Positions 6,701-63,026 of a stretch of DNA of 64,000 nt are shown piece after piece; position 1 is the stretch's first letter; every line of letters begins with the position of its first letter. The notes beneath the pieces are model-generated. The model searched no databases, was not told the DNA's origin, and saw nothing but the letters and a program-made list of their open reading frames with translations. Both the position numbers and the translations under genes were made by a program. The DNA comes from Tachypleus tridentatus (Eukaryota; Arthropoda; Merostomata; Xiphosura; Limulidae), in the NCBI RefSeq assembly GCF_004210375.1, contig NC_134830.1:67000326-67064325 (forward strand), written 5' to 3'.

Positions 6701-9700
6701 CAGATTAGATGATATCTCACCTACACTACCAGATTACCACTGCCCTACTCTCAACTGAATGGTTTTACCATTATTTGTATCACATATCATTATCACACTC
6801 AGAAGGATCCTTCCATAATCCACCACCCCATTGGCCCAGAATTGGAAAGTGATAACGATTCCCATACTTCATTGAAAAAAAAGGGTGGGGAAGAAAATGT
6901 GGTAGATAATTCAAAGAAATGACAACACCAGAGACAGTGCAGCTGAAAACCACATAAACCTTATTTTGAAAAGCAGACCACACCTGATTTATTCAATCTC
7001 AGGAATGGCAAAGATGAGCAGCTATCCTCTTCTGCTTTGCACATAAAGTTCACAAATTAATGAAGTCCAGAAAAGGCATATGAATGAAGCAAATATATCA
7101 TGAAGAAAACCTATAATCAATCTTGTGGAACATGGTAATGTACCATACTGGAATATTCTTTTTTGTGTTATTATGTTAATACTGAAGTAGCTTAAATAAG
7201 TGATGGCAATAAGTGTAACTTACCATCTCTTCTTGCTGTTAGCAAGTAAACATTTCTGTTCAATATTTTCTTACATTTTATTCAATGAAAAAGTTACCTA
7301 AATATTGGATAAAGCAGCAATATCAGATCTGTTGACAGTCAAAACAATAAAATTTAAGGCTGGTTTTAGTAGAACATTTCCACATCCTACAACAAGACAA
7401 TAATGTAAAAACTGATTAACTCAAAAACAAACATTCTAAAATATTCCAAGTTTTTTAAAGATTTTAGGCTTAGTGTGATTAACCATATAAAGCTATCAGC
7501 TGTTCAAGGTTTTGTTAAGTAATAAACCAATGTAGTTTTATTTACTGACTTTATTAGTAGTTTTAATAAAGTATTATTACTTACTTTATTAGTAGTTATA
7601 ATAAAGTATAATCACTTACTTATATTTCTCTTGAGCATTCCATTTACATTGTCTACTGACTTCTCTCTGCTTATGATTACATGAATCTTTGGTTGATATG
7701 TCTTCATGTTTTGTTGAGTGGACTATGACAGATCTGTTGTCCAGTTCACTAACTTGAATAACACCTAAAAAAAAAAAAAAAAATACTGAAAATCAACCAT
7801 TACTTTAGTATGATCATTCAAAAAAAAAAAAAACAATTCAAGTGATTTCAATTTTTATGATAAACTTCATAAATAAATTGTAAAAAACAGTACAATAAAT
7901 AAACCTGTAGCCCACATACATGCAATAATAAGACAGATTCAAGTGTGGTATTTTCACATAACACTGACTTTATACAAGACAAGACTGGTCCATAGATTAA
8001 TGAGGAATTCATTAAGATACTTACTCTAAATAAATTTTTATTAACTGATTGAGTTGGAGCAAAACAAAGAAATATTAAACACTACTGTACAATCATTATA
8101 AACAATCTTTATTCAATCGAACACTATGAAAATGCATTTTACTTATCACAGCAGACAGTCACCATTACTAGAGATTTATAGGTTTGAAATAGCAGATGAA
8201 TTTATACATAAAACTAACTCTTAAGATCACATTCCATACTGAATAAGTCTCACATTACTTATGTAACTTGTTAATGTCAGACTCATTCAGGATGAACAGT
8301 GTTACCCATGTGACTTATTCCCAATGAAACAAAATCATTAACTCAAGATACTGCCATTGAAAAAGACAAATGTCTTCACACATTACAGGTGAACCTTGTA
8401 ACTTTCTTTACCACAGGATGACAAAGTGCTACTCTAGATGAATGACATAAAACAAGTTGCTAGACCACCAATAAATTAATTTCCTGCTTCATCAAAATAA
8501 TGTGGAAACAGAAGATACCTGCACAATTTTGCAATAGAGGTCACAATTTTCCCATTTCACCTCCATTTTCTGTCCTGGAGAGCCTTATCCTTCTCCATTC
8601 TCAGGGTGCAGATATGACATCATGAATAAGACACAAATGGATCTAATGCACTAATGCCATCTATATAAATATAATAGTACTGTCTGTTGTATGTCTATGT
8701 AAATACTTCACAAGGTGTGGACAGATCTTCATCAAAATTGGTATGGAGGTTAATTACATCCATGGAGAAATTTTCTATTTTTGCATTTTGTAGTATTTTT
8801 TGTTATGAATGTTTCTTTACCACCACTTCATCCTTGTTGGTGGATCTTCACCAAATTTGGCATGAAAGTGTATTGGGTCCATGAGGAGATACATACAAAT
8901 TTATGATTTCACATTGTGTTTTGCTGTTTTCATGGGAATTTTGGTGTTTTTTTTATAACATATATAGAAAACAACTTTTCATGTCTTAAGATAACCTTTC
9001 ATTAATAATGAATTTAAATATCTTCCATCCATGATACGAGTACCCCAGCTAGTAATAATAATACACTGGTACACTAATATTCTACACACTCATAAATATA
9101 TTTATAGAGGTTCAACACACACACTAAATTTATAACATAAAAAGTTAATGCTAAAAGTATTCAACAGAAAAATATTTTGTTACACATACATACAATATTA
9201 TTTCTCTGATCCAAATATTTATCAAACTACATATGCATAAACATTTCAAACCACAGTCGCTGAAATATTTTAAGCACTATAGAGTGATAAAGTTATATGA
9301 AATTTATAAAGATGTACTGTGCTGTTTTTTTGTTACACATTTTCTTAAACATACATATATATAATGCTAATTAATTACACAATGTACTTGAATAGTTTTT
9401 AACTATTAAAAGTAGATTTACGCATACCAAAACCTTCACTGACCTTTGTAACGAGGTATAAAATGTTTCAATTCTCTTGGAACATTAAGATAGAAATGAA
9501 GTTCACGTTGAATCAGAGGTTTACACAAAGTGTCAGGTTCCAAAAGCAGCATCTGTGAATGACCTCCAACTTGGTGGTTGAAAGGATACATCTCCCTGAC
9601 TGGATCTTTGGATGTTCCATGTGTTTCTATCACTGCTGATGCACAATCTTGTAAGCTATTATCTCCCATTTTTTTCTCTCTCTCATGATATAGTCAAAGA

Positions 9701-27553: not shown

Positions 27554-27831
27554 TTGTTTGTTTGTTTTTAAATTTCTCGCAAAGCTACTCCAGGGCTATC
27601 TGCGCTAGCCGTCCCTAATTTAGCAGTGTAAGACTAGAGGGAAGGCAGCTAGTCATCACCACCCACCGCCAACTCTTAGGCTACTCTTTTACCAACGAAT
27701 AGTGGGATTGACCGTCACATTATGACGCCCCCACGGTTGGCAGGACGAGCATATTTGGTGCGACCGGGATTCGAACCCGCGACCCTCGACTACGAGTCGA
27801 ATGCCTTAACATGCTTGGCCATGCCACGCCC
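27554..27831 (-). mobile_element. SINE family A nested in the hAT element
   Basis: Full-length family A on the minus strand, ending in the tRNA-like head (gggattcgaacccgcgaccctcg, B box complement). It is flanked by a perfect 11-bp duplication CCTTTGTAAGC (27543-27553 and 27832-27842), so SINE A moved after the hAT element was in place. Confidence 0.93.
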
Positions 27832-30643: not shown

Positions 30644-33600
30644 GAAAGAAAACAATGGTTGGAAAGTGCCAACTCCGGACAGGACAAAGACACCGATAAA
30701 TATACTTGTTTAACATCAAAAGGTAATACGTAAAGTGCATGTCATGTGTATACGCTGCTGCAAACTCATTTTATAAGTTACGAATTTTTAACTTGTCTAT
30801 AAAAATGTATTTTAACATTATCATTCACTTTGTTGGGGAATGGCTGTCTTCATACTCCTATGCTTCTGAAAATTCAATAAAGATCGAGATCACAGATCAC
30901 CCCACATTTATCACAGGAAACGAAATGCGTTTTTTTTTAACTTAGATGTATATTACAAATCTAATGCATGATATCTCAAACTTGAAAAACTAGCAGTCAT
31001 GAACCTGAAACCAATAAACGACGACATCTGAGTATGACTTTTTTTTTAAACATCGTGCATTTATTAGAGTTTTTTCATCACCAAGTCAAGCCGTTTCTAA
31101 ACTTTATTTTCTAAAAAGTGTGTTCTTCGTTATCATATTTAAACCTCAAGACAGGGGGCAATAGAAAAGTTCGTAAAATATTTTAATGTAATCATCACAA
31201 TAAAAAAATCACGATATTTTAGGAATACACCATTTTTGGGGTATTTCCATAACACACATACCATTATACATTTAAATCACTTAACTGAAATGTTCTTACA
31301 TTGAAGCTGTAATAACTGTTTAGTTCAAAATATTATCAATAATGCCATGGATCAGCCATGTAAAATCCATGTGCACTGAGCTTTACTGTATAAATTAAAC
31401 TTAGTAATTGGTATTAAAGGGGTTATTATATTTAGTAATATGTAAGAGCTATCAAGCAACAGTGTTGAAAGTTGTTTATAGATAACACCTAAACTGGACA
31501 TTGATATTTGTATTTATGGCAATGCCACTTGGCTATCTGCCACCATTCATGATTTTAGACTACTAATCAGAGGGAAGGTTGCCCCCCTATGTCCCATGCT
31601 ATGGTATTTCTTTTATAATATACTCACAACTTAGAGTGGAAGTATTTCAAGATATTGAACAAAGTTAAACTTGGTTAAATAACTACAAAATCTATAGCTC
31701 TCCCACAGAGCCAACCCATGCCTGAGCATTAGTAACTACTTTTATCACACATGTTACCATCATTGTTCAAGAACATCCAGTATTCTAAATGTGTTAGGTC
31801 AATGATAACGTTAAAGTAAAAAAAAGAAAATATGGTTCCAAAATGTAAAATAAAGGTTATCTCAGATGTTTATCTGAACTAATATTGATGGCAAATGCCA
31901 GAAAGTACACCAATTCCAAATAAGCCACAAGATTTTAAATGAAAATGCCTCTGAAAACAAAGATCAATATCTTGTTTAAGCAAGATAACCCTTCTTGCCA
32001 TAAAGCATGTTAATAAAACAAGATCTGGTTTCAAAATACATAAAAATCTGCTAAATTTCTTAAAAGTGGCCAATTCCTAGAATCAAAATCTTAACACCTC
32101 TTTTGATTTTTTTTTTAAACTGTTTCCAATCCCTGTCAATTAACCAGTTCTGAGAAAAACCAATTATACAAAACATCTGAAAGAACCTAGATTTCCATAA
32201 GATAATGACAAATAAAATAGCAGCAGTTACACAGGCCAAGAGTAATGTCACTCCATATTAAGACAGTGATTACAAAGATTTTTTCTTGTAACATTTTATA
32301 TTTTTGATTGGTTACTGAATATTTGCAAAATCATAATACAAACCCTCAACTTCACTATCTGCAGCACTAAGCTGTTTGTCACTCTTGTCTAATTTCAATA
32401 AGTAAAATAACTGAATGCAAATACAATCATTAGTGCTTTATTTGGGCTGTCATAGAAAGAAACATTGTGTAGCAAAGGACATATTTAATTCTTATTTTCA
32501 AGTATATGCTCTTGTATTGGTTTAAACAACTACTTCAGACAGTTTCTGTTACAGCTTTTTCTAAAAATGTAATAACATTACGAATTTGCTGTTGATACTG
32601 ATGAAGTTGAGTTCACTTGTCCAAAACACATCCTTTTTTTTCATGTGACTTATCAATTGTTTAATCCTACTTGTTTTTAACATTGTGAACTGACAAGTTT
32701 TTTTTTAACAATACTTGTCTTGAACTGTTGGTTAGGTTTTGTGGCATGATTACTACTTTCACTAATTCAACTATGCAGAACTTAGCAATTTTGTTTGTTT
32801 GTAAAAATCCAGTACATTAATAATACTATCAAGGCATAAGATTTGGGAGCAGTATTTATTTTTTTAAGGTGAAACTTCGATTATTTTCCTGAGTACAACA
32901 AAATTTCCAGGTATTCTGCAATTTGTATTTTTCTGCACCTGTATTCTGAAAGAATATTACTTTGAACTGGACATATTTTAATTTCAAGAAATATTTTTCT
33001 GAACTTAAGTACCTATTATTCAGAAATTCATATTTAAAGAAGTGGAAGGAACAAAAAACAATTCACATAAAATAAATTTTATTTTTAATTCATATGTATA
33101 TAATAATAACAATTGTCAGTGTTCACACAGTCCAATTGCTCATATGATGGAAGAAAATGGTTTAGTACAAACAAGAAAAACTTTTTCCTACCTGTTTACT
33201 TCAATTGCATGAGGCAACATTAGCAGATTCATAAAAATCCCTATTTCTATGAACTATTAATTCTATGGCCAATTCACAATGTATTTTAAGTTTTAACAGA
33301 AACTTAAAACATTTACAAAAACAGCATAACATAAACTCTCTAGATAAAACAAATTTATTGTTGATTTCATTTGTAATTATTTAAAAAATAACATAGAACA
33401 ATGAAAAAATATAAACTGAGGATGCAGAACTACTTATGGCATGTGATATTCTTATCTTTAACTTATCCCAGTCTGTTTTTAAATGTTTTTACATAAATTT
33501 CATTAACAAAATCAAAATCCATATTCACATTATACTGTAGTACCTTTTACCACCCACAACCATACAGTTTCATCTCTTGTCAAAAATATGACAGTTGTTT

Positions 33601-34635: not shown

Positions 34636-35234
34636 TTACATGAATAGACCTCCAGTTACCTCTATAACTTCACCTGTTATGTACTTGCTTTTGCTAGATG
34701 CTAAAAACAAACAAGCTTCTGCTACATCTTCAGGTTTACCACATCTTGCCAATGGTGTTAACTTCTTGAAATGACTCATTACTTTTTCTGGAATAGTCAC
34801 ACCTACAGGAGTATCAATAAAACCCGGCATTATAGCATTACACCGAATTCCATGCCTCGCCATCTCTTTGGCAACACTCTTGGTTAATCCAACAACACCA
34901 GCTTTAGATGCTGCATAATTACACTGGCCAATGTTTCCAACTTTCCCAATGATGCTGGAAATGTTAACTATGGAACCGTTTTTTATTTTTTCTGAAATCA
35001 TCAGTCGACATGCAGCTTGTGTGACAAGAAAAGTGCCCTTCAGATTGACATTTAACACATCATCGAACATTTCTTCAGTCATTTCGTCCATCAATCCATC
35101 ATGTGCAATCCCTGCACTATTTACAACAATGTCAGGTACCTGGGATAGCCTCTGATTAATAGATGTAAATAGGTTTGTCACACTATGAGACTGACTTACA
35201 TCTACTACCTCCATGATATATAGATTTTCTTCAT
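34636..35234 (-). CDS. HSD17B8: HSD17B8 exon, C-terminal (residues 56-254)
   Basis: Acceptor tttgttaatttcag|ATGAAG at 35235. The first two bases complete the GAT codon of D56, and the frame runs to TAA at 34636. It carries the NSAG, N-S-Y-K catalytic residues and the C-terminal GGLFM. Confidence 0.95.
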
Positions 35235-41354: not shown

Positions 41355-41640
41355 TTATTTCTTCATTATTTCAGAGGGTACAGTTAATTGTGATCTTGGG
41401 CTAATTGTTATCCACACTTCATCTTCAGGTCTTGTAATTACTCGTTGAAGAGGATTCACAACTTGACCATCTACCAGATGGAGTTCAAACTTAGTACAGA
41501 TTGCAGAAATATATAGTGCCAGCTGCACATACACCAGGTCAGAGCCAGGACACTTTCGTTTTCCTGAAAAGCCAAATGGTTGAAATGCTAATTTGGATCT
41601 TGAGTTAGTGTCATCTTCATCAAATCTATCAGGGTTGAAC
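41355..41640 (-). CDS. CYP20A1: CYP20A1 last exon (heme-binding region)
   Basis: Acceptor ...tcatttttag|G TTC AAC; runs 94 codons to TAA at 41355. It encodes FNPDRFDEDDTN, FQPFGFSGKRKCPGSDLVYV with the heme-ligand Cys, FELHLVDGQVVN and DEVWITISPRS. The loop retains G-x-R-x-C-x-G, more canonical than the vertebrate version. Confidence 0.95.
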
Positions 41641-44600
41641 CTAAAAATGAAAGAACTTAATTTACAACGAATTATAAACGAACTTCACTCATTCTTTAAT
41701 AGTGGAAGTTTCTTTTTAGTAACAACAAGCAAGAGTAAAGATTTTGCTGCAACTGTTAGTGTAATTAATACTTTCCATTTATTCTTGCTGTCACCAACAT
41801 GGCTAAAACATATTTAAACAGATTCCAATATTGTGTGATCTGTTGCAAAAACTAAAGCTTCTTGTTTAATTCTTGATCATTTTCAACAATATATTCTCAC
41901 TAATATATAAAGGGATCTTATTTCTCTAAATTGTAAATCTGTTGCAAGATTAATGATTACCTTACTTTGTTTGATATAATGTAAACTATTAAACCAAGTA
42001 TCAATATACTAATAATACAATATCTAACTCAACTAAATAAACAGTGTTTCCAAGTGAACTGAATATTCAAATCAGACCACACATTTTTGAACTCAAAATG
42101 GTGGCATTTAGGTGATCAAACCAATTGCCCATGCTGGTATCATGATACTTAATATATTAATTATTTTCACAATTTGTTATTTGTTAAAATTAATACTTTT
42201 CAAAAACTTTAGTTCATACACCCAAATAATGTAACTACTTTCCAATGAATATTTTCAGAGCTAACTACAAATTTTTTTCTTTTTAATATATGGCTAAAAT
42301 GTTGAAATGAACAAACTATGATATGTAATAATTACACATAAAATTATGATAAAAACTACAACAGGTGAAAACATTTCAGAGACATTTTGCAACTGGAAAT
42401 TGTTATAAGACCATCAATGCTGTACTTATGTAAATATAATTTCTAAGTGAGATAAAACACTCCTACCTGAACCAATTCTTCATTACTTAAAATACACCAC
42501 ACATATAGAATCTATGGCACAGAACACGTTGATATTTAAATTCAGAGTTACAATTACTTACATTTTAGGAAGACTCCAATAATTTTCACTGTGCAACACC
42601 ACACCTAAGGCTTGGATCACTGGAGTCTAGGTGGAGAAAAATTCATTTTAAAGTTAACTGACCCAAAGAAAAGTTACCAATTTGTATGCAGTTTTACAGA
42701 CAGAAAACAATGATTTAATAATAATACACTCTCTCTCTCTCATGGGTGAACAATAAAATTTTCTTAAAGCAATGCATAATCAGCAGCTATTCATTATAAT
42801 TGTAATTTCCATATAAACTAAGAATGTGTTGCACAATACAGTATACACTAATAAATTAAATAATGCATAGAATGCTAAAAAGGTTTTTGTAAGTACTTAC
42901 AGTATATAAAGTTAGAAAAAACTCATACTCCTGGTAGTTATAACAGATTACAAGGTTTAAAGGCATTTTGTTTCTAATTTTATTATCAAAACTTGTCCAT
43001 CTCCCCAAAACATACTACAAATTTGTAAGACAACATATGAAGACCATATCATAAAGAATGAAATAATGTATTATAGATTACTGTGAGTTAATTGATACTT
43101 AAGAAATCCCATTTAACTCCTATCTACCAAACTGTGATTCTGCAAATATAAAAGCAGACATTCAATACTTTCTTTTTATCTATCTTTCAATCTTTTCAAT
43201 TTTCTACCCTTTTTTGAAAACAATACCAGACTTTTTTATTTACATTGAATATAAATTTATATTTACATATAAATTCATTGGAATTATTTATTTATTGTTT
43301 TTCTTTTCTTTGAATTTTGCACAAAGCTACATGAAGGCTATCTGCACTAGTTGTCCCTAATTTTGCAGTGTAAGACTGGAAGAGGACAGCTAGTCTTTGC
43401 CACCTACTACCAACTCTTGGGCTTCTTTTTTACTAACTAAAAGTGAGATTGACCATCATCATATAATGCCCCCAAGGCTGAAAGGACGAGCATGTTTGGT
43501 GTGACGGGGATTTGAACCTGCGACCCTCAGGTTACAAGTCAAGTGCCTTAACAACCTGGCCATGCCAGGCCTAGGAATTATTTATTAAAAAACTTATTCA
43601 CATGTAAATAAAGTTTTGTATTTTCTTCAGATAAATAAAATTCATAGAGTATAATTAGAATATTGTGTTTAACTTTATATTTGAAAAAAAGCACATCCAA
43701 GTACATATTCTATTAAAGATGTAAATACAATGTGTAAAGATGTACAGTTAATATCTCATACAAAAGTTACTCAATTATCAGTTCTATCAAGACGGCTTCA
43801 GCATCCTAAAACTTATGTTTGAAGTTATGTGGGAGATGGACAAAATACACTGTAGATAAATAATAACATCTAAAGTTAACATTTTCATTATCCAAAGTAG
43901 GAAATAATCATTATCCAATATAACTGGTAGTGCAGAAAAGTACAGTGAAAATAATCTTCTGCATGGCTCCAAAGTGTTACAAGGTTAGCAGAATGTAAAG
44001 GCTGCTCAACCAGTCTGTATGTTCCAGGGGTCAAAGATTATGTATGTGTAGTGTTGCTAGGGCAATAAGTTAACAAATAAAGCATGTGAGAAATACTTAA
44101 ATGAAATATCTATAAAAATATTTTATAGTTTTCCAAAATCTGTAGTGCATACTGGAGGGATTTACAAATGTTTTCCAATAATGTTTTTAAAGAGTGACCT
44201 TTACTCCCCAGATAGTAATGTATATATATTTTAATATCAGCCAAAGTTTTGCCATTGATTTCATCTAGTAGTACAAAATCAGTTCTTGTACTACTAGATG
44301 AAACTGCAGTGTTGAAATGTTAGCTGATTTAAAAAAATTTTTTTATTGACTGGATTGTAAAATTTTCTTTTAACAACTTCACTGCCAACCTATCAAAATA
44401 AGCAGGTGCAGGGATAAATCATCCCAAGTCTACATCTAAAGGAGAATGCAATATTCATTCAGTTTTTGAGGACTACCAGGAATGATTCAGTTCTTGGTGT
44501 AAGGGGTGACACCTGTACTACATTTCCAGATAAATAACACTGACCTATTTCCAATCAAGGGATAGGTCCACTTGGTCTTAAATCAACTTGATGATAATGA

Positions 44601-47600
44601 CTTCCCCACTGGTTTGCTACTGGGGAAGCAAAGGTTCTTCAACTCAATTAGAAGAAAACTGGAAAAAGGAAGTTGCTTGTTGGAAATTACCAAAAAGGCA
44701 CATTTACTGAACAGGAGTTATCTATCACCTGCATAAAATTTTAAAACTGAGAGACTGTGCAACAGATTACCATACACAAAGACAGCAGGAACTGGCCAGG
44801 CACGTGGGAAAGAGAAGTAATCCCTGTTACATACACCAGCCAAATGGTTGGTTACATTACCTCCAGTATGCACGTGCACACACACATCTACCCTCTAGAA
44901 TATCACAATCAAGGTGCTGGCTAAAGATAATATAAGTGTGAAATGGCAAACTGTATGGAAGATGACATTATAAGGATGAAAAAGCCATTTTCCATGGAGG
45001 AATAGATAAGCTGGATGAGTTGTTTAACCCAAATTGTTAATGCAGAAAGAGACAAGTCCTAAGAAAAAGAGGAATCCTATAAAAAATATATATATAAGCA
45101 GGACAAAGGAAACAGTCAGGTTCTAAATAACTGTAATAAGAAGAAGGAGAAAGGAAAAGAACTGGAGAAACAATCCCTCCCTCAAGCAAATCAAGTTTTT
45201 TAGGAAAGAAAAGTGGTCTGGTAATAAAATCAATCTGTACCTGTGGTGAAGACTACTGGAGGTGTCCAAAGTAAAAAATCAATAAAAAATCACAGGGATG
45301 TCTCCTTCTAGTGAGAATAAAAAGAAAATACATCTTAGGTGAAGAACTGTACGTACGAGAGGGGAGGGGCCAAAAGTTCAACATGTGACTGAATACTGGA
45401 GTGCCAAAGAAAAGAATTATTTTTTGGCATGCATAAAATGCTAAAAGGGATATGTGCAAGGAGGATATGATGCCCTCCCATTGGTTAAGAGGCAGAGTCT
45501 GATGCTGACTGCATGGCAGACTGATGCAGTACATTATATCGTGCAGGGATAGGAATATCATTGAAAGGTTTGGCAAGTGTGATAAAACTTTGTTGCAATG
45601 ACATTAAGTATTAAGTATTTGTTCTGTTGAGAAGTAAGTAATACTTCTGAAATAAGGCTTAAACTAATTTCTTGATGCTAAAATGTGCACTTGCACCCTA
45701 AAACATATATTCAGTTTTTACCAATTTTAAATCCATCACAGTGGATGTATGTACCCATTTACATACACAATCACTTAAAGCAAATTAAAAGGGAAATATG
45801 GTTTGGAACAAAATGACACCATTTTTTATTTATGATTATTTTCTTTTTATAATTTACATTACTTCAAAGAAGTCACATGTGTTAAGACTACCTAATGATA
45901 ACACTATGTAACACAAATTTTGTTCCAGGATAGCATGTGTTATTTCTTAATTTATTGTGTTGTAAAAGTACAGAATGTGGCCATTATTCCCTTCAAACTT
46001 TGCTTTTATGACCTTGATAATGAAATTTAGAAATTAACCTGTTTTCTATGTAAAAACGAGCAAATATGCACATTTTCATTTACATAAGGTCTGAATAAAA
46101 CATAGGAATCAAGATTTACATGTATTTATAAAGTTAAACAGAAATGTTTAGAAGTGAGTAGTTTTTCGAGATTTGAGACTGTAATGTAAATCACTTTCAT
46201 GTATCAGCCCTCAAATATAGTCTCCCATCACGTTTTCGTTATATGCTCCCAGATTACTGAAGCAAAGTCTGAAGAGAAAAATAGGTCTTTTCCATTTACT
46301 TTAGGCACAAGCAATTGGGAAATAATGCTTTCTGCCCAGGAACAAGAAAAAGTAAAAATTTTGTAACATAGTGTATTTGTTCAAACATGGTTTAAATAAA
46401 ATGAAGCCTAGAAAGTACTGAAAATAGACCAACAGTGATCAACTAGGAGGCAAAATTTTTTTTCAGCTTGCTCCTCATCATAGTTTATAATTAACAAAGA
46501 TTAAAATACTGTTTCCACATTAGAGCCACCATTTATTAAGTGACCAAAAATTACATAAACTAATTTATAAATCTACTATTTGACACATCTTTACTTGATC
46601 AAAATTGTGAAAATAGGCAGTTCCTTTAATCAACCTAAAGAGAACATTTAGTTAAGTTACTCTGACAGAGAAAGGATTAATAAAAGTTGTTAAAAACTAC
46701 TATGTTCTAAAGTTTTGGTCCTTACTAATTTTCCCATTATGTTCTTGGTTATTACATTTTTCTAGATTTCACATCCAACAGACTTTTTGCCCAATAAATT
46801 TTTTTTCACAAGTAACTGGCAGAAAACAGAAAGAGAATACCTTCTTTGGAATAATATGTCCACCAATTTCAGCATCAAGATCTTGACAACGTGCTGTCCA
46901 CGGTTCTACAGCTGCCATTCGCAGCGTCTCATTAATCACTTGACGAAGATATCTAAATTTAAAAACAATAAAATTTTAATTAAAAAACAGTGTACAAATA
47001 TTATCTAACTTTATATTACTGTAATGATCCACAGAGAGATTTATTTTACCTAACAAGATTAAAACCAATATCTTAAGATAATGTTATTCAAATTAACACA
47101 AGTGAAATTTTTAAGTGAAAGCTTTAAAATTCTTATATTACCAAATAGAGAAAACTCCTGCTTCATGGATCCAAGAACTTAGCCATTTTTTTCCCTTAGA
47201 AAATTGCCTTTCTATGTATAAACAAGTAGGAGTAATATGTAACAAATGAATAAAACCACAGCAGAAAATTTCCTGTGCCACATGGTTGAAATAGTTCAAA
47301 GAACAATTCATATCTATGCACATAACCAGTGTATCATTAGTTACTGGACATATCATAAATGTACTTTATCTCCATACACTAAAGTATTTGGGTACTTTGA
47401 AAACCGATTTCAATATTTAACTACTATACTCTAGCTCAAACTATCTACTATTAGACACATATATTTTATTAAAATAAAAAAACAAATCTAAATGTGAACA
47501 AAAACATATTACAACCACTAGTCATTTTTTCTTAGAACATTTCAAAAATCCTATTAAATTTTAAACACTCCACTTGTTGGTTATCACATTGTTAAATACA

Positions 47601-56900: not shown

Positions 56901-59900
56901 GAAGTGTTATAACTTCTGAGCATTCAGACTATTTGTAACTTGGAATTTGAAATGCTGACAATATATATAGCAAAATTCTGTGTGCCTTAGTTGTAAATAA
57001 ATACTGACTCTAAAAGTAATAAATGCTAATGTTTTAAGATATGGGAAGAAAATTATACAAAAGTTTCTTTAACATGCATTCCTGGTTGGATACTATCTAA
57101 GCAAAATTGTCAACTGTTTGTTTCACAGCTAGACCCAGATTATCCTAAATTGTTTTCGAAGTTCATGGACCTGCATGTATTCACTATTTTCAATCCCTGG
57201 TTAACAACATATGTATGTAATGACCATGTTCTGCTGAGAGTTTCACCTAGATTAAATGTATATTGGCTTTGTTACTATGAAAGAAGAAATTTCCAAATCA
57301 TATAAATATCAATAAAATTCAAAATTAACTAAAACTTCATATTATAAATTATTCTAAACTAAATTAATCATGGAATTCAAATACACCTTTGTGCAAATTA
57401 ATTGAAAGAAGACAGAAAATTATGATTTTTTCAATTTTTTGCATTTTATTTCTGAGAATCCAAAAATTACTCACAAATTAATACATGATATGACCACCTT
57501 TATTTTTCAGAAGATCATTAATCTGCTTTGGCATAGAGTCCACGAGTTGACTGCAATCTTTACTAATTTTTGGATCGTGGTACTACACCTCAATTATGGC
57601 CTCAATTAGCTTATCTTTCGCAGTACAAGTCTTTTCTCTGAAGTATTTCTTTACAAATCGCCCAAAGATTTTCAACAGGATTTACGTCCGGAGAGTTTCC
57701 AGGCCAGTCCAGCACCTTTATTCGTGTTGTATTCATAAAATTCTTCACAAGTTTTGATGTGGGGCACGTAGCCAGATCTTGCTGAAAAATGCCAGATCCA
57801 TCTGGAAATCTCTTTTTCAATTCTGGAATGACTCTTCTCTGCAAAACTTCGATGTACTGTGGTCCTCGCATTAAACTTTCTATGATATGCAAGCCTCCTA
57901 TGCCACAGTAGATGAAAAAGCCCCAAAACATCTTTTTCAAGGGATGTTTTACGAACTGATTGATGCAAGATTCTTGAAGTTTCTCACCTGGAGATCTGCG
58001 AACATGCAGACTTCTTTGACCCTGTATGAAGAAATGAGTCTTGTCACTGAATAACACATTCCTCCATTGTTCTTGCATCAAGTTTCAGACCCCACTGATA
58101 CCATTTTTTTTCATTGAGTTGGTAAGAAGTTGTGTTTTGACTGGTCTCCTTGCCTTTCTAATGCAATTTCGAATGACGTAATATTCCTCAAAATTTCATC
58201 ATATATCCCAAAAATAGATCAACCGTACTGCAAAACACAGCTAATGATGCTGTCTGTGTGAAAAAATGACTATTAAAGGAAATCAGTGGGTCCAGCGAGC
58301 CTACACGAGCTGCCACACTGAAAATATTGTAAAATAACCATTTGTTTCAATTAATTTGCACAAGGGTGTATTTGAGTGGCAATTTTTGGTATCTTTTTTA
58401 TCTCAAATAAATTATTTTAAAACACATTCACTACATGAACTTATTATGTAAAAACAGTAACTTTTACAAAACATCTTGAGCATCAAATATTTCTTTAAAT
58501 ACAAATAAAAGTGCTAACACCACTGTTAACAAGGTGTTTAAATTTGAATTTGAATTCCTGGCAAGTTAATTCTTCTTCTCTTTAACTTTATTCTCATTTG
58601 AAATCTTTATAGATTATACTTCTAATCTCAGTATAATGTTTATATCTTCACAAAAATCTGTCAGTCTTTTAGTTAGCATGATGTCTTTCACATACATATT
58701 TTTTGTTAAGTATTTTTAATAAACTAAAAGAAAGATTTGTCTATGAATATAGAGTATCTGTTTTGAATAGTCCATGTTCAGAATCATTTTCATTTTAAGG
58801 TGAAAAATACTTTTCCTCATCTCAAAAATCTCATATTTCCTTTGCGTAATTCATAAGAATTCATAAATATATTTCAAACATATTTTTTCAGTAAAATTTT
58901 GTATTTTACATTATGCTTTCTACCCAACCTTAATATGGGATAGGTAAATTTGATCAATCTCATAGCTGCCAAAAAGTAAATTTAAATTACCTTTTTTCTT
59001 TCTAGAATTGTAACATGAAATAATACTTGTTTATCCTAAGTAACTTTAAGCTCATAACAGTATACATCTATTTATAATTAAGTTTCATTATTTTATTTTC
59101 CTTTTGATTGCCATAACTAACATGTCTAACTACTTTTCACACCATCATAAGTGGTAAATTACTTGGGGCATATGCATCTAACATTATCCTCATGCTGCTC
59201 ACATGTGTGCTTCGTGCTTCATTAAAAATTATATTATTATTTTTACCTAATCTGAACTAACCTAAAAATGTCCCCATTTTGACATATTAGTTACTTTTAT
59301 AATAATAAATATAAAAACAAGAAATGAAGTACTTACCTAACCTTATTTTTGTTGCTGTTGACAGTCAATTATATCTAAGCCTACATATTTTATACAAATG
59401 GTATCAGTGCATCAAATATTTACATTTAATTAAAAAGTAGTTTAATAAAATTTTGAGAGTAAGATGCAAAAGCTTTGTCATGCATAGTTTGAGATGCCCT
59501 GGACAAAAGAGATAAAAGTCTCTTTTCAAATCCTTACTGTCTTAGATGAGTTGCCTGCATTAAAATAATTTAAAAGTTGTATTTGTTTGAATATGTTTTT
59601 TTATATTTTGGAAGTTGACTGAAAACACACATCAGTTTTAAAATGGCAATTTTATACTTAAATTGGTAATTATAAGTTATATATATTTGACATCTGAAAT
59701 GCAAAATATTAATTTATATTGTTAATTAATGAGAGAAGGTGTTATGTGAATAAATCATAAAAACTTGTTTATTTTCTTACAATTTCAAAGTTGAGGCTAA
59801 ATTCCAAAACTTCTTTTCCATCCAAGAAGTAATCACCAAAACCAAGGTACATACAAGCTTTCATACACAAAGCCATCACATACTGAAATACTGGAATATG

Positions 59901-62225
59901 CTGTTCTGTAGGTAGTGTAGTCCATTTCTTGATTAACTCATCAGCAAACTAGGAAGCAGATGTTTTTGACATCATTAAATAGCTTTCTATTACAAATTCA
60001 AACTCCTACTATAATGAGTATTTTAAAATTAAAACTACAAAGCAAAACACTAAATAAATATGTGACAAAATATTCAGTAGTTTCATAGCTCTCTTTCTTT
60101 GTTCATTTTAACAAATACAACTTGCAATAGAAATACAAAAATAAGTATATATAATTTTCTCAATATTATTTTACAAATGATCATTCTACACAGCATATTT
60201 TATGCTCAGAGCATCACTTAATTATATTACTAAACTCTTCTGTGAAATTTATATTAATCTGGTAAGTTACCAATTATTCTGATTTGAAACATTATGTAAT
60301 CAAATAATGTGAAAACAGGTGTATTAAGGAATGCATCCACATGAACAGGTTGTACAACATTACATCAGCAAACAAGTACACCAATCTTCATGTCTAATGG
60401 ATTTTATATAGAAATAATATCTGTCTATTTTGTCAATACAAACCTAATCAATCCCAATTCAAACACATAAGAAAGCATTATTTTAAGGATTTCATATATC
60501 CTTATTTACACTGGAGTACATTGTTACAAGGAGCAGTAATAACTACAGAGCTCTCTCATGTTATATTAAAATGATTTGTGAACTTTATCGGGTTTTTATA
60601 ATCCATATCACCAGGTCTGGTCATACTCCATTTGATGACCACACACCTTTACGATAGGTCTGATAAACAGTTATATTGTAAAAAGCTCTATTAAAGAGTT
60701 GTCATTTCCAAAGTACACCAGTTCTCTGTGCTTGCTTTACATAATTCATCCAGCATACAGTGCCATTAAGTGCAAGAGGTATTCCTGAATTGGAAGTTTA
60801 TAATTCCTAATCTGAATACATCTTTGTGATTGAGTGTATAAATACTCTGTGTAAGAAAGGGCTTTGCATATCCTTCTCAAATCAGTTTCTGTTATTATTA
60901 CACTACTTACAAAATGCCATACAATGTCAAAATGTAGTTCTCATAAATTACATTTCACTTGTGACTTTGTATCTGCTGTGGTGCCATATTACTTGCTGAG
61001 TTGCACATTAAAAATTGATTTTATATAGCATACTCACCCATCTGTACCATGCACACTTTAATGATGTGTGACCTTTCAACAAGTGTTAGTGAAATAAGTT
61101 AGATGTAGTTCACTAAGTAGCTGGTGGCATGTTTTCTTTATTACATGAAGAAAGTACTAATTTATTTACTAAACACTGAATGAAAAACATGTTTTTATAT
61201 CTCTTTATAACAAAATAATGAACAGTTGTGAGATTCTTTTGACTTTTTTGGTATTATCTTATTTTCTTTATTTTCTTACTCATTGAATAACTTGAAGCTT
61301 TAAAATTGCTTACAGAAATACACTGACAAGTAACTTATAAAGTTATAACCAACATATTAAAATAATTTAAACTGGATATTAGGCAGACCTAGCAAGATAT
61401 TTTTAGGATTATTACCTGAATTACTAGTTTATACTATACATGTGAGAATAAACTATACATTTTCTGACTGATTCCTTCTGTGATTTGCATTACCAGCATA
61501 ATTTCATACCTTCTAAACTCTAGCTTTTCCTTATCACTTGTTATACATATGTTTTAAAACTTTCACTAATACTTCATTTTAGGTTAAAAATAAATCAGTA
61601 CTAATGCTTTATTCCTTACCACATACTTTTATAAGCTTAATGCTAAGACCTATTTTTGTTTCTGTTTCAGAACTTCTATTGCTCAACTGGATTATGTTCA
61701 GAAATTATAGTAATTGATAATTTATGAAGGAAACTTGAAAAAACTCTTACAGCTCTTGGAAAATAAGTTCAGTTTAAAATATTCTTTTTTTTTAACATAA
61801 ATTTATAGCTTTCCATGTTCATAAACTTTGTAATAAGATCAAATCATCTCCTTTTTTTACATTTCCATTGGTTTAACATTTAACTTCTCAATCTCTTGTT
61901 AAGCTAATAAATAGGTTTATGATGTAAAAGTGTGAATTATTTACTGTTTACATGAATTACAGTTAATTCCCTGAACAAAACAATGCAGTTACTCTTGTTC
62001 TATCACAAAGGACATACAGAAGTAAACAAAATTTAAAGAATTAAACATCTTTAAAGCATTTAACTTTTCTTAAACTGACCTCTTTCAGTTGAGTAAATGT
62101 GAATTCATTGTTCATGCAACAAATGATCTTGTCAAACTGCTGTCTTCTCTTTCTACCTTCTGTACCATTTGAAAAAAGCAGACTCCCATCTCCAGTAATA
62201 GGTTTGTACAGTGTGAACAAATCCA
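41355..62225 (-). CDS. CYP20A1: Cytochrome P450 20A1, partial gene (N-terminal exons off the right edge)
   Basis: CYP20A1 is an ER-anchored orphan P450 with no settled substrate. Seen: seven minus-strand exons in order, with good splice sites, encode about 356 residues aligning end-to-end with animal CYP20A1. They include SNGTEGRKRRQQFDK, FADELIKKWTTLPTEQHIP, the EETLR-type ExxR as ETLR, IPKKTPVIQALGVVL, the PERF-type FNPDRF and the heme loop FGFSGKRKCPG. The N-terminal anchor and first exons are not in the window, and one short exon expected between 59781 and 52212 (about 80-90 bases) was not found. The canonical I-helix A/GGx(D/E)TT is absent, as in CYP20A1 generally. No stops or frameshifts in the exons found. 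The 20-kb locus is inflated by SINEs, LINE, DIRS and Tc1 insertions in introns. Confidence 0.92.
42562..42626 (-). CDS. CYP20A1: CYP20A1 exon (K' helix to meander)
   Basis: ctccacctag|ACT CCA ... CCT AAA AT|GTAAGT; encodes TPVIQALGVVLHSENYWSLP, matching the ALGVVLQDP...WP region of CYP20A1. Phase 0 in, phase 2 out, fitting both neighbours. Confidence 0.92.
43293..43573 (-). mobile_element. SINE family A, diverged, in a CYP20A1 intron
   Basis: Whole family-A length with many C-to-T type changes. Flanked by a perfect 13-bp duplication GGAATTATTTATT (43280-43292 and 43574-43586). Confidence 0.9.
44233..44332. repeat. Inverted repeat (about 44-bp arms) of a hammerhead-like motif
   Basis: The left arm (AATATCAGCCAAAGTTTTGCC ... 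CATCTAGTAGTACAA) is an imperfect reverse complement of the right arm (TTGTACTACTAGATGAAACTG ... GTTAGCTGATTT). Each arm, read outward, has CTAGATGAAA ... GAAA/CAAAA ... GTT/CTTT GGCTGA or AGCTGA, a degraded form of the motif duplicated at 62.9 kb. Confidence 0.7.
44340..46840. other. CYP20A1 intron with unclassified, less AT-rich block (about 44.4-45.6 kb)
   Basis: The block looks like old repeat DNA: a 107-codon minus-strand open frame at 45576-45253 lacks any motif I know and has no splice context. From 45.6 kb to 46.84 kb the sequence is plain AT-rich intron. Confidence 0.35.
46841..46952 (-). CDS. CYP20A1: CYP20A1 exon (ExxR K helix)
   Basis: Acceptor aatttag|A TAT CTT CGT, donor AAG|GTATTC. 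Encodes YLRQVINETLRMAAVEPWTA and ends GGHIIPKK. E and R of ETLR form the K-helix salt bridge of P450s. Confidence 0.95.
48728..48848 (-). CDS. CYP20A1: CYP20A1 exon (after I helix)
   Basis: Acceptor cttttattttaccttag|C AAT GGT, donor CTTAA|GTAAGTT. Encodes NGLGHLLLATHKDVQEKVYK, then ELKDVVGSSSLSYTVLPKL, matching the TTSEEVQKKLYEEI region of CYP20A1. Phase 2 at both ends. Confidence 0.9.
49361..50890. repeat. Dispersed repeat family 1, copy b
   Basis: Colinear with 5240-7150 but without the SINE at the site corresponding to 5901-5909 (here tgcagagtagctgg near 49967) and without about 220 bases near its right end. It sits just left of the DIRS-like relic, on whose minus-strand orientation it would be downstream. 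Confidence 0.75.
51300..51870 (-). pseudogene. Probable DIRS-like retrotransposon relic (RNase H to recombinase boundary)
   Basis: Reading leftward in shifting frames, pieces such as HPLALAVYMLRQDWILF followed by a hydrophobic stretch (SFFLVDFIHPCHSVSYL) and SHLLISFGSHWSYRSH resemble the DPLALAVDAL.....W....YAFPP......RVL.K......I.LIAP.WP segment of DIRS/Ngaro-type polyproteins. Many stops and frame changes. The match is by pattern memory only and could be wrong. Confidence 0.45.
52041..52212 (-). CDS. CYP20A1: CYP20A1 exon (H to I helix)
   Basis: Acceptor atctatataacag|CT GTT GAA. Encodes VERLHKTIRKSLHSRQSKEK, then LLDHLIELNVPEEQILND and GVVFVVKHYSLVF. The obvious donor TTTG|GTAAGTG (exon end 52045) leaves phase 1, but the next exon needs phase 2. 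A donor four bases on, GGTAA|GTGTTT (exon end 52041), restores the frame and gives a junction of the same length as other CYP20A1 proteins; I use that end. Confidence 0.85.
53039..53300 (-). mobile_element. SINE family A, diverged
   Basis: Family-A body and head complement, recognisable throughout (gaatttcgtgcaa, tagactagagggaaggcagctagtcat, ttttaccagtgaatagtgggattga, accctcagattacaag). No clear target duplication. Confidence 0.85.
53827..54660 (-). pseudogene. CR1/L2-like LINE reverse-transcriptase relic
   Basis: In order on the minus strand with frame changes: SLNSGQAPTFLKLANITPIF and KGGNRSHPCNCRFISLTSV (fingers/palm start), CEQDAVDLQKDLDHL, NNWQMGFFNNKCHIVHV, then NLDGNSVNSVVKERSFGVIV, SQSLMPSKQCAIASSKRNRI and VRPHLEYSGQSW. 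These are the standard blocks of CR1/L2-clade RT (KCK.MH.G, DLGV..S..LK...QC..A..KAN..LG.I, LVRPHLEY..Q.W). The catalytic YADD region is not preserved. The AT microsatellite at 53871-53895 interrupts the end. Confidence 0.78.
53871..53895. repeat. (TA)n microsatellite
   Basis: Uninterrupted TA dinucleotides after an A run, inside the LINE relic. Confidence 0.97.
54700..56490. other. CYP20A1 intron, AT-rich
   Basis: No exon or element could be supported. The missing CYP20A1 exon (expected VW.EIGKG.LDG-like) was searched for by eye here and not found. Confidence 0.4.
56495..56615 (-). mobile_element. SINE family C, diverged
   Basis: Minus-strand copy of the 20.4-kb element: ttggaatcaaacacaaagctac, caaaactcagtttttagtggtgt, acatactgctatgccactg. 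Confidence 0.75.
57384..58368 (-). mobile_element. Tc1/mariner-type transposon, internally deleted
   Basis: Terminal inverted repeats of 24 bp with one mismatch (CACCTTTGTGCAAATTAATT at the left; complement of CACCCTTGTGCAAATTAATT at the right, both followed by GAAA) are flanked by TA target duplications at 57382-57383 and 58369-58370. At 985 bp it is well short of a full Tc1 element (about 1.6 kb), having lost most of the N-terminal DNA-binding part of the transposase. Confidence 0.92.
57611..58180 (-). pseudogene. Tc1-like transposase C-terminal (DD34E) remnant
   Basis: An open 156-codon frame (58081-57611) encodes WRNVLFSDKTHFF, IFQQDLATCPTSKLVKNF and LDWPGNSPDVNPVENLW. The catalytic triad is intact as D(13), D(102) and E(137), with 34 residues between the second D and E, which is Tc1-type. 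Just upstream the frame continues as RKARRPVKTQLLTNSMKKNG and is then broken by TGA before LMQEQW, with signs of a frameshift. The helix-turn-helix N-terminus is missing, so the protein cannot be active. Confidence 0.88.
58369..59780. other. CYP20A1 intron, AT-rich
   Basis: Nothing recognised; one CYP20A1 exon may be hidden in 52213-59780. Confidence 0.4.
59781..59948 (-). CDS. CYP20A1: CYP20A1 exon (E-F helix region)
   Basis: Acceptor gcttcctag|TTT GCT GAT, donor GAAATT|GTAAG; 56 codons, phase 0 to phase 0. Encodes FADELIKKWTTLPTEQHIPV, then FQYVMALCMKACMYLGFGDY and ends EVLEFSLNFEI, aligning with the LSEELLDKW...TQHVPLSQHM region of CYP20A1. Confidence 0.92.
59949..62079. other. CYP20A1 intron, AT-rich
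   Basis: No features recognised. Confidence 0.5.
62080..62225 (-). CDS. CYP20A1: CYP20A1 exon (C helix region), most N-terminal in window
   Basis: Acceptor cttttattttgcag|TG GAT TTG, donor AAAGAG|GTCAGT; phase 1 in, phase 0 out. Encodes DLFTLYKPITGDGSLLFSNG, then TEGRKRRQQFDKIICC and FTFTQLKE. The RKRRQQFD stretch is the C-helix basic patch equivalent that contacts heme propionate in P450s (family knowledge). Confidence 0.9.
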
Positions 62226-62574
62226 CTGCAAAATAAAAGTGCATTTAATCAAAGTTAATTATATCTGCTTATGTAGATAAAAACTAAAAGTTATATTTGT
62301 TTAGATATACAATAAATATGATCAATAACAATAAAATGAACATAAAAATCTTAAAATTAATTAAACAAATGGCAGGAAAAATATAAATTTTATTTTTGCA
62401 TCAGCTTTCTGCATATAAATTTCAAAAAAATCAGATACTAGTTTCAGGATTTAGTCTTCACCAGAAATGAAGTAACAAAATCAGTGACATGCATGTATGT
62501 TTAAATATTAACACAGTAGCTACTTTATATGCAAAAACGGTCGTTTGGGTTGAGAAAATATTTTACATAGAAGA

Positions 62575-62616
62575 GCGAACAACGTTTCGACCTTCTTCGG
62601 TCATCGTCAGGTTCAC
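62575..62616 (-). ncRNA. Candidate hammerhead ribozyme (minimal stem III)
   Basis: Minus strand, 42 nt: GTGAAC (stem I 5' side), CTGACGA (core C3-A9), T + GACC-GAAGAA-GGTC (stem II, 4 bp with one bulged T), GAAAC (core), GTT (cleavage triplet), GTTCGC (stem I 3' side). Stem I pairs over 6 bp (five Watson-Crick, one G-U). Stem III would be only ACGT, as in dimer-type hammerheads of Penelope-like retroelements and related repeats. It is on the sense strand of CYP20A1, upstream of the first exon in the window. Confidence 0.55.
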
Positions 62617-62922
62617 AAAGAAAGAGGTAATGGACCGGAAGCTGACCACATGTTTGAAAGGTGTTGTGTAACTGAGTGTTGGAATGTAGAGGGCGGTGTT
62701 AGATGTTTGAATATATAATTTCTCGACATCACTGACAGTAGCTACTGCTCTTGTGTAATTAGATAAATTATTTTTTCTTTCGGGATAAAAACCAATTATA
62801 ATTGAAACAACTGTAATAAGTAGTATTGAAAGACAATGCATTTGATAAACTTTAATAAGTTTACAGTAGAAATTGTTTTAATAATAAAAACATCTCTATC
62901 TTCACTATATTTATTATAGTAG

Positions 62923-63026
62923 AATTATTGCACTATTAGCCCTGATGAAATCACAATAGTGAAATGTTGGCTGAAATTATTGCACTATTAGCTCTAATGA
63001 AATCAAAACAGTGAAATGTTGGCTGA
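62923..63026 (+). repeat. 52-bp tandem duplication, each unit with a hammerhead-like motif
   Basis: Two exactly 52-bp units (62923-62974 and 62975-63026), each reading AATTATTGCACTATTAGC ... GTGAAATGTTGGCTGA, with five differences. Unit 1 has TTAGCC-CTGATGA-...-GTGAAAT-GTT-GGCTGA: the exact hammerhead CTGATGA box, a GAAA box and a 6-bp stem I (TTAGCC with GGCTGA, one G-U). Stem II is weak. Unit 2 has CTAATGA in place of CTGATGA and so would be dead. Confidence 0.6.

Follow-up and report, generated by a model that had tools for sequence, protein, structure and literature searches.

A hammerhead motif at a P450 locus of Tachypleus tridentatus as part of a Penelope-like element remnant with one tailed and one untailed end

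The P450 locus and its hammerhead motif

The DNA analyzed here, a stretch of 64,000 nucleotides from Tachypleus tridentatus (the window), carries exons of a P450 gene on its minus strand. One exon (41355-41684) matched PF00067 at 2.2e-11, above the Pfam cut-off, and a second match on the same strand (46769-46975; 9.9e-5) scored 21.7 bits, just below the cut-off of 22.8; two other open frames in the same Pfam run gave no match. At 62080-62225 lies a likely further exon, for which an AG acceptor (62226-62227) and a GT donor (62078-62079) were assigned by eye and whose frame gave no Pfam match of its own. A hammerhead motif is found at 62575-62616, with the 3' splice signal of this exon, as placed by eye, ∼350 nt farther downstream. 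Given that the P450 exons lie on the same strand as the motif and that a 3' splice signal follows downstream, the motif is probably intronic and sense to the P450 gene; its placement on the sense strand of the gene in the original prediction is borne out. The features of the region are listed below in window coordinates.

62080..62225, minus strand: probable P450 coding exon on the downstream side of the insertion (open reading frame; splice sites by eye)
62513..62524, no strand: target-site duplication copy 1, ACAGTAGCTACT (end comparison)
62525..62734, minus strand: whole insertion of 210 bp, made up of a truncated 3' pseudo-LTR from a Penelope-like element (PLE) and an inverted stub of the tail (alignments, ends)
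62532..62549, minus strand: AC-rich segment just before the untailed end (folding; comparison with PMC11167929)
62575..62616, minus strand: minimal type I hammerhead motif (sequence, shuffle folding, motif model)
62721..62734, plus strand: inverted 14-nt fragment of the element tail, reading CAGTGATGTCGAGA on the minus strand (end comparison)
62735..62746, no strand: target-site duplication copy 2, ACAGTAGCTACT (end comparison)

Hammerheads are defined by a CUGANGA and GAAA core, an NUH cleavage triplet and stems I and II. All of these are present in the motif, which reads GTGAAC CTGACGA T GACC GAAGAA GGTC GAAA CG TT GTTCGC on the minus strand from 62616 down to 62575, and it also has the very short or absent stem III that is a feature of minimal PLE-type hammerheads. 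Stem I comprises 6 bp (GTGAAC/GTTCGC, including one G-U pair) and stem II comprises 4 bp (GACC/GGTC) with the hexaloop GAAGAA; ahead of stem II there is a single extra unpaired U at 62603. Stem III consists only of the self-complementary ACGU, which provides two intramolecular pairs and no loop. Cleavage is predicted between 62581 and 62580. The minus-strand sequence thus agrees with the anatomy as originally described: core blocks CTGACGA, GAAA and GTT in order, 6-nt arms, stem II with its hexaloop, one unpaired T at the base of stem II as the sole deviation and a stem III of just ACGT. A complete minimal type I hammerhead core at 62575-62616 is therefore confirmed. In folding calculations, the motif strand was more stable than 199 of 200 shuffled sequences (z = -3.86), the fold concerned not being the hammerhead.

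Rfam searches of the window returned only a tRNA at the gathering threshold and no hammerhead, and searches of 62450-62750 and 62560-62630 returned nothing at E values up to 10; the lack of an Rfam hammerhead score is attributed to the missing stem III. A motif model built from 12 copies of the same genome scored the window motif at 84.1 bits, by construction, and gave no convincing second hammerhead in the window, its two weak matches being at 34703-34739 (E = 0.27) and 33167-33238 (E = 1.6). The former falls within apparent short-chain dehydrogenase coding sequence and was rejected as a chance match.

Several other features of the window were recorded. The C-terminal coding sequence at ∼34640-34800 (minus strand) presumably belongs to a short-chain dehydrogenase, and a 157-amino acid open frame at 57611-58084 (minus strand) has the look of a Tc1/mariner transposase. 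A tRNA match of 33.4 bits is located at 27756-27828 on the minus strand. On the plus strand, opposite to the motif described above, another hammerhead-like motif of 52 nt (AGCC CTGATGA ... GAAA TGTT GGCT) is present twice in tandem at 62923-63026. It has nine genome matches including itself and resembles a PLE-type hammerhead of a different, older kind whose stem II has decayed.

The insertion, its relatives and the alternative readings

A search of the genome with 62400-62900 gave at least 43 matches, the window itself included (40 of 1,870 first-look candidates scored). Thirty-nine were 94-97% identical and covered only 62721 to ∼62521, some extending slightly further, and three were shorter. 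Homology was confined to the insertion (query positions 180 to 375-397 of 501), and alignment of 29 relatives with their flanks revealed a common 3' end, GCATATAA, together with progressive 5' truncation at differing points. The window insertion is enclosed by a target-site duplication of 12 bp. In minus-strand sense, the inverted tail stub forms the left end, where the 14-nt tail fragment joins the body via AAA microhomology at 62719-62721. The AC-rich segment folded as a weak stem-loop in a relative (-1.1 kcal/mol), and no such structure was predicted in the window copy (0.0).

Seven relatives were taken with ∼10 kb each, and their open frames look alike. In one of them (L041), tested in full against Pfam, a reverse transcriptase domain (RVT_1, 2.7e-11) was found upstream of the same hammerhead; 400 residues taken from the frame in L040 had no match to RVT_1, and the C-terminal frame of L041 gave no GIY-YIG match. 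A genome search for GIY-YIG yielded four matches above the Pfam cut-off, one of which (PF01541 at C12:83775152-83775361, locus L049) belongs to a frame that is followed, 124 nt after its end, by a near-identical hammerhead; of the four loci, only this one has the window-family hammerhead within its flanks. In L039, hammerheads at 6893 and 9661 (element sense) flank the open frames, and inverted copies of the hammerhead block are present in L040, L041, L042 and L044. Hammerheads on both sides of the frames, in combination with reverse transcriptase and GIY-YIG, correspond to the layout of a PLE with pseudo-LTRs. The PLE features found are thus a reverse transcriptase domain, a C-terminal GIY-YIG, pseudo-LTRs in partial tandem or inverted copies and a tail, the two domains coming from L041 and L049, respectively. 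The window copy starts ∼20 nt downstream of the position at which the frame ends in L041 and is therefore a non-coding remnant.

The motif is abundant. The pattern CTGANGAT-N14-GAAACRTT gave 11,303 and 11,319 matches on the two strands (22,622 in all), and a reversed control pattern gave 6 and 9 (15 in all) in the same genome. With 2.167 Gb searched, this amounts to ∼0.7 motifs per 64 kb if evenly spread. Among the matches listed, 43 of 100 had the same 30 nt as the window, 83 of 100 kept all four stem II pairs and position 7 was C in 67, A in 22 and T in 11. At least two related families can be distinguished, one with C at position 7 and a 6-bp stem I and the other (family B) with A at position 7 and a stem I of only 3 bp. 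Most copies would be decaying descendants of a few masters, and the high copy number provides many natural insertion products to count.

The best explanation of these data as a whole, and one held with high confidence, is that the motif is a PLE-family hammerhead and that the copy in the P450 intron is a short 210-bp insertion of a dead element. The original suggestion of a retroelement hammerhead of the dimer type holds in that the motif belongs to a PLE, dimer formation itself being a presumed property.

Support from covariation was sought in 12 distinct copies, which are too closely related for a strong test: both-sided changes were seen at 0 of 10 stem pairs, and the outer stem I pairs were broken in 5 and 7 of the 12 copies. 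Covariation therefore does not prove the hammerhead, for which it is support rather than a defining feature. The original prediction had named a low covariance score and an absence of compensatory changes as evidence against an intact ribozyme, and both the Rfam result and the stem comparison fall on that side. Moreover, the minimum free energy fold of the isolated motif is a rod in which GACG pairs with CGUU (-15.2 kcal/mol as compared with -11.2 kcal/mol for the hammerhead pairs, no credit being given for the hammerhead core), with pair probabilities of 0.83-0.99 in the 42-nt motif and 0.51-0.62 in 198 nt of context. The conserved unit could then be a protein-binding hairpin rod and no ribozyme, a reading to which the behavior of PAc, a Poseidon PLE of Anolis carolinensis, lends something, given that its hammerhead cleaves only with the element protein present (PMC11167929). 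Over the 12 copies, the cells of the rod were paired slightly more often than those of the hammerhead (87.2% versus 85.0%), and such counts alone do not separate the two folds. Position 7, the free position of hammerheads, is more informative: its letter changes between copies, whereas the G opposite it in the rod is conserved in 11 of 12 aligned copies, leaving the rod pair broken in 5 of 12, and this favors the hammerhead. The family B motif, furthermore, does not form the rod, and in PAc, mutants of C3 and of G8 lose cleavage, which the double mutant partly regains (PMC11167929). A rod in place of a ribozyme is thus considered unlikely. By analogy, the window motif appears to fit the dimer-type or protein-assisted hammerheads reported from PLEs: cleavage after GUU would require assistance, supplied either by the element protein or by a second copy that pairs via the palindromic ACGU of stem III, and copying of the element would not depend on it.

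A different possibility is that the host has co-opted the motif and that it works as a self-cleaving ribozyme, cutting the pre-mRNA of the P450 gene (putatively CYP20A1) within the intron, as the shared strand of motif and gene and the intactness of every core block might suggest. Intactness, however, is what a young copy would show, given that 43 of 100 places among the matches listed share the 30-nt core with the window. The motif is a high-copy repeat (∼0.7 per 64 kb), present here as a solo, shortened copy with no convincing partner within the window with which to form a dimer in cis. As a monomer it folds best as the rod, which closes the core; it has no Rfam score even at an E value of 10, and its 12 distinct copies show 0 compensatory stem changes. 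Co-option is accordingly regarded as highly improbable, the motif is not a host-gene ribozyme and the earlier proposal that it affects processing of the host pre-mRNA is left without support. An apparent host-gene ribozyme that proves to be an ordinary repeat is of use to any scan in which hammerheads from animal introns are flagged; the interest of the finding is in the insertion rule of the element and not in the host mRNA. No greater weight is given to a non-autonomous animal retrozyme, that is, a small tandem element with circular RNA and a type I hammerhead. The small size of the insertion, its type I hammerhead and its duplication of more than 4 bp are in keeping with such an origin, as are the retrozyme RNAs of ∼170-400 nt reported in the accessible sections of PMC7229834. 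Those sections, however, describe tandem non-coding units of 150-450 bp with one hammerhead per unit, and the motif-model search found no such tandem repeats in the window, where the motif is a single copy. The relatives are continuous with reverse transcriptase-coding copies, and the insertion ends at the two start sites of the element (see below) instead of at the cleavage site.

Ends of the insertions and junctions near the predicted cut

The RNA of the element has two 3' homology stops, GCATATAA right after the AC-rich segment and CATCACTG ∼36 nt further on, after the tail. In the window insertion, read in minus-strand sense, GCATATAA forms the right-hand end, and immediately inside the duplication on the left stands CAGTGATGTCGAGA, the tail end in inverted orientation. 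To extend this comparison, left and right ends sharing a duplication of at least 9 bp were paired at 158 loci. A pair was obtained at 73 loci (74 pairs in total); at the others, the far end was outside the fetched stretch or decayed, or there was no 9-bp duplication. After removal of a low-complexity pair (L119, also one-tailed), 72 of 73 pairs had exactly one tailed and one untailed end. The exception was a pair with two untailed ends in L042, a locus at which a one-tailed pair has the same duplication. When the untailed pair of L042 and two duplicates (L093 and L126) were also dropped, 70 of 70 insertions distinct by duplication sequence were tailed at one end and untailed at the other. Among the 72 one-tailed pairs, 56 came from loci chosen for a junction near the cut, a choice independent of the ends, and the chance rate of such a duplication between unrelated loci was 6 in 3,039. 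The duplications of the 70 insertions were 73% A+T and most often 13 bp long (32 of 70), and the insertions ranged in size from 47 bp (L046) to 4.8 kb between end marks (L040). Among them are tiny complete PLE insertions with 13-bp duplications, at ∼2024-2097 of L046 (47 bp) and ∼7565-7691 of L039 (100 bp).

One tailed end in 70 of 70 insertions suggests priming from two start sites in the RNA. The simplest reading is that both target strands prime the sense RNA of the element at two fixed sites and that the products are joined, often with a short microhomology such as the AAA in the window. In the mechanism proposed here, the element RNA would carry, in order, the hammerhead, the AC-rich start site (site 1), the ∼36-nt tail ending in site 2 and the open reading frame, after which the hammerhead block recurs. 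Both strands of an AT-rich target would be cut, mostly ∼13 bp apart; reverse transcription of the sense RNA would then be primed at site 1 by one target 3' end and at site 2 by the other, and the two cDNAs would be joined head to head inside the insertion. The 210-bp copy in the P450 intron would be a short product of such two-site priming. Both this priming scheme and the enzyme subunit assigned to each start site are what we infer from the ends.

It is considered about as likely as not that PLE insertion always depends on two distinct internal start sites, with one assigned to each strand of the target. If so, the start-site asymmetry would reflect two reverse transcriptase subunits bound in register on one sense RNA, the hammerhead-tail block would be a two-slot loading site and two-site priming, in place of self-priming on an antisense template, would account for the inverted head-to-head structure. 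A qualitative version of the one-tailed ends is already published, in the accessible part of PMC3846280; a literature search for a stated strict rule found none, older Penelope papers being mostly beyond its reach.

Frequent copying of cleaved RNA would be expected to leave many insertions that begin with the first base past the cut. Candidate junctions were counted by a rule requiring two non-matching letters before the junction, which misses junctions whose flank matches by chance; 131 were found at the cut, 66 one position upstream, 48 one downstream and 44 three downstream. The 19 nt that follow the cut occur 8,930 times in the genome, so that the candidates counted at the cut make up at most 131 of 8,930, the true share being somewhat higher because of the two-letter rule. 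Among the matches listed, the at-cut junctions had the prefix AC in 24 of 100 cases, which from the letters fits internal GTT deletions, and 16 of 100 lay in one stretch of 27 kb (C6:37763196-37789817), apparently a local amplification, of which one copy was read (L078).

Flanks were read at 40 of the 131 junctions at the cut (the first 40 listed without prefix AC, one amplification copy kept), 20 of 66 one upstream (prefix AC, 12 of 66, left out and three other places passed over), 20 of 48 one downstream (prefix GT, 15 of 48, left out) and 22 of 44 three downstream (prefix AA, 22 of 44, left out). The distinct junctions, numbering 28, 19, 20 and 22, respectively, were sorted by script into deletions, inverted arms with or without a microhomology of at least 3, and new flanks. 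Internal deletion, the local amplification and microhomology in the near-palindromic stem I accounted for much of the difference at the cut. What was left, as a rough estimate by hand arithmetic without error bars, was ∼46 junctions at the cut as compared with 43 at the position immediately upstream and with 26 and 20 at one and three positions downstream, respectively. An excess at the cut as a footprint of cleavage in vivo was therefore rejected: it is approximately 2-fold over the downstream sites and absent over the upstream neighbor, and the junction counts are not taken as evidence of cleavage. Given that there is no clear excess at the cut, reverse transcription mostly ran past this position, which suggests that the copied RNA was mostly uncut at the hammerhead and that cleaved RNA made at most a weak contribution to the copies.

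Comparison with known Penelope-like elements

Minimal PLE hammerheads were reportedly the subject of studies by Cervera and de la Pena (2014) and Lunse et al. (2017). In the accessible sections of two reviews (PMC6155905 and PMC7761336), they are described as having a type I core, as mostly lacking loop tertiary contacts and helix III, and as located in pseudo-LTRs and dispersed in thousands of copies in animal genomes, all of which applies here; they may act as dimers. The window motif differs from the hammerheads of those sections in the extra U between A9 and stem II.

The closest comparison is with PAc (PMC11167929). Its hammerhead also lies in the pLTR with the start codon at stem II, and the cut falls downstream of the start codon by 26 bp in PAc and by 24 nt in the window family, where an AUG is formed at A9-U-G10.1. 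The position of this AUG provides a possible reason for the extra U, which may thus be explained by a start codon at stem II as in PAc. Unlike that of PAc, however, the hammerhead AUG opens only 13 codons before a stop, the long frame starting further down (L039), so that the link between the extra U and the start codon is kept as a suggestion. In L039 (element sense), the tail and AC-rich segment at ∼6936-7067 lie within a possible 5' intron (GTAAAA ... TTTTTCTCAG) recognized by eye, splicing of which would leave the hammerhead AUG out of frame with the long open reading frame. PAc resembles the window family in its AC-rich stem-loop, internal initiation of reverse transcription and two start sites bounding the tail, and in the use of unprocessed RNA as the dominant template; cleavage and extension on both strands have been described for it (PMC11167929). 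In vitro, PAc showed no apparent difference in start site between strands, whereas the paired insertions here use both sites.

Penelope of Adineta vaga, as far as the accessible text of PMC3846280 goes, shares with the present family its inverted pLTRs and short duplications. There, a 31-bp tail is optional on one inverted pLTR, whereas here exactly one end is tailed in 70 of 70 insertions; its duplications are 8-10 bp or absent, in contrast to the mode of 13 bp found here; and self-priming of an antisense template is favored, unlike in the reading preferred here. The role of the PLE hammerhead in vivo is termed a mystery in the accessible part of PMC7761336 and PLE transposition is termed little known in that of PMC11167929; the genome from which the window comes makes both countable.
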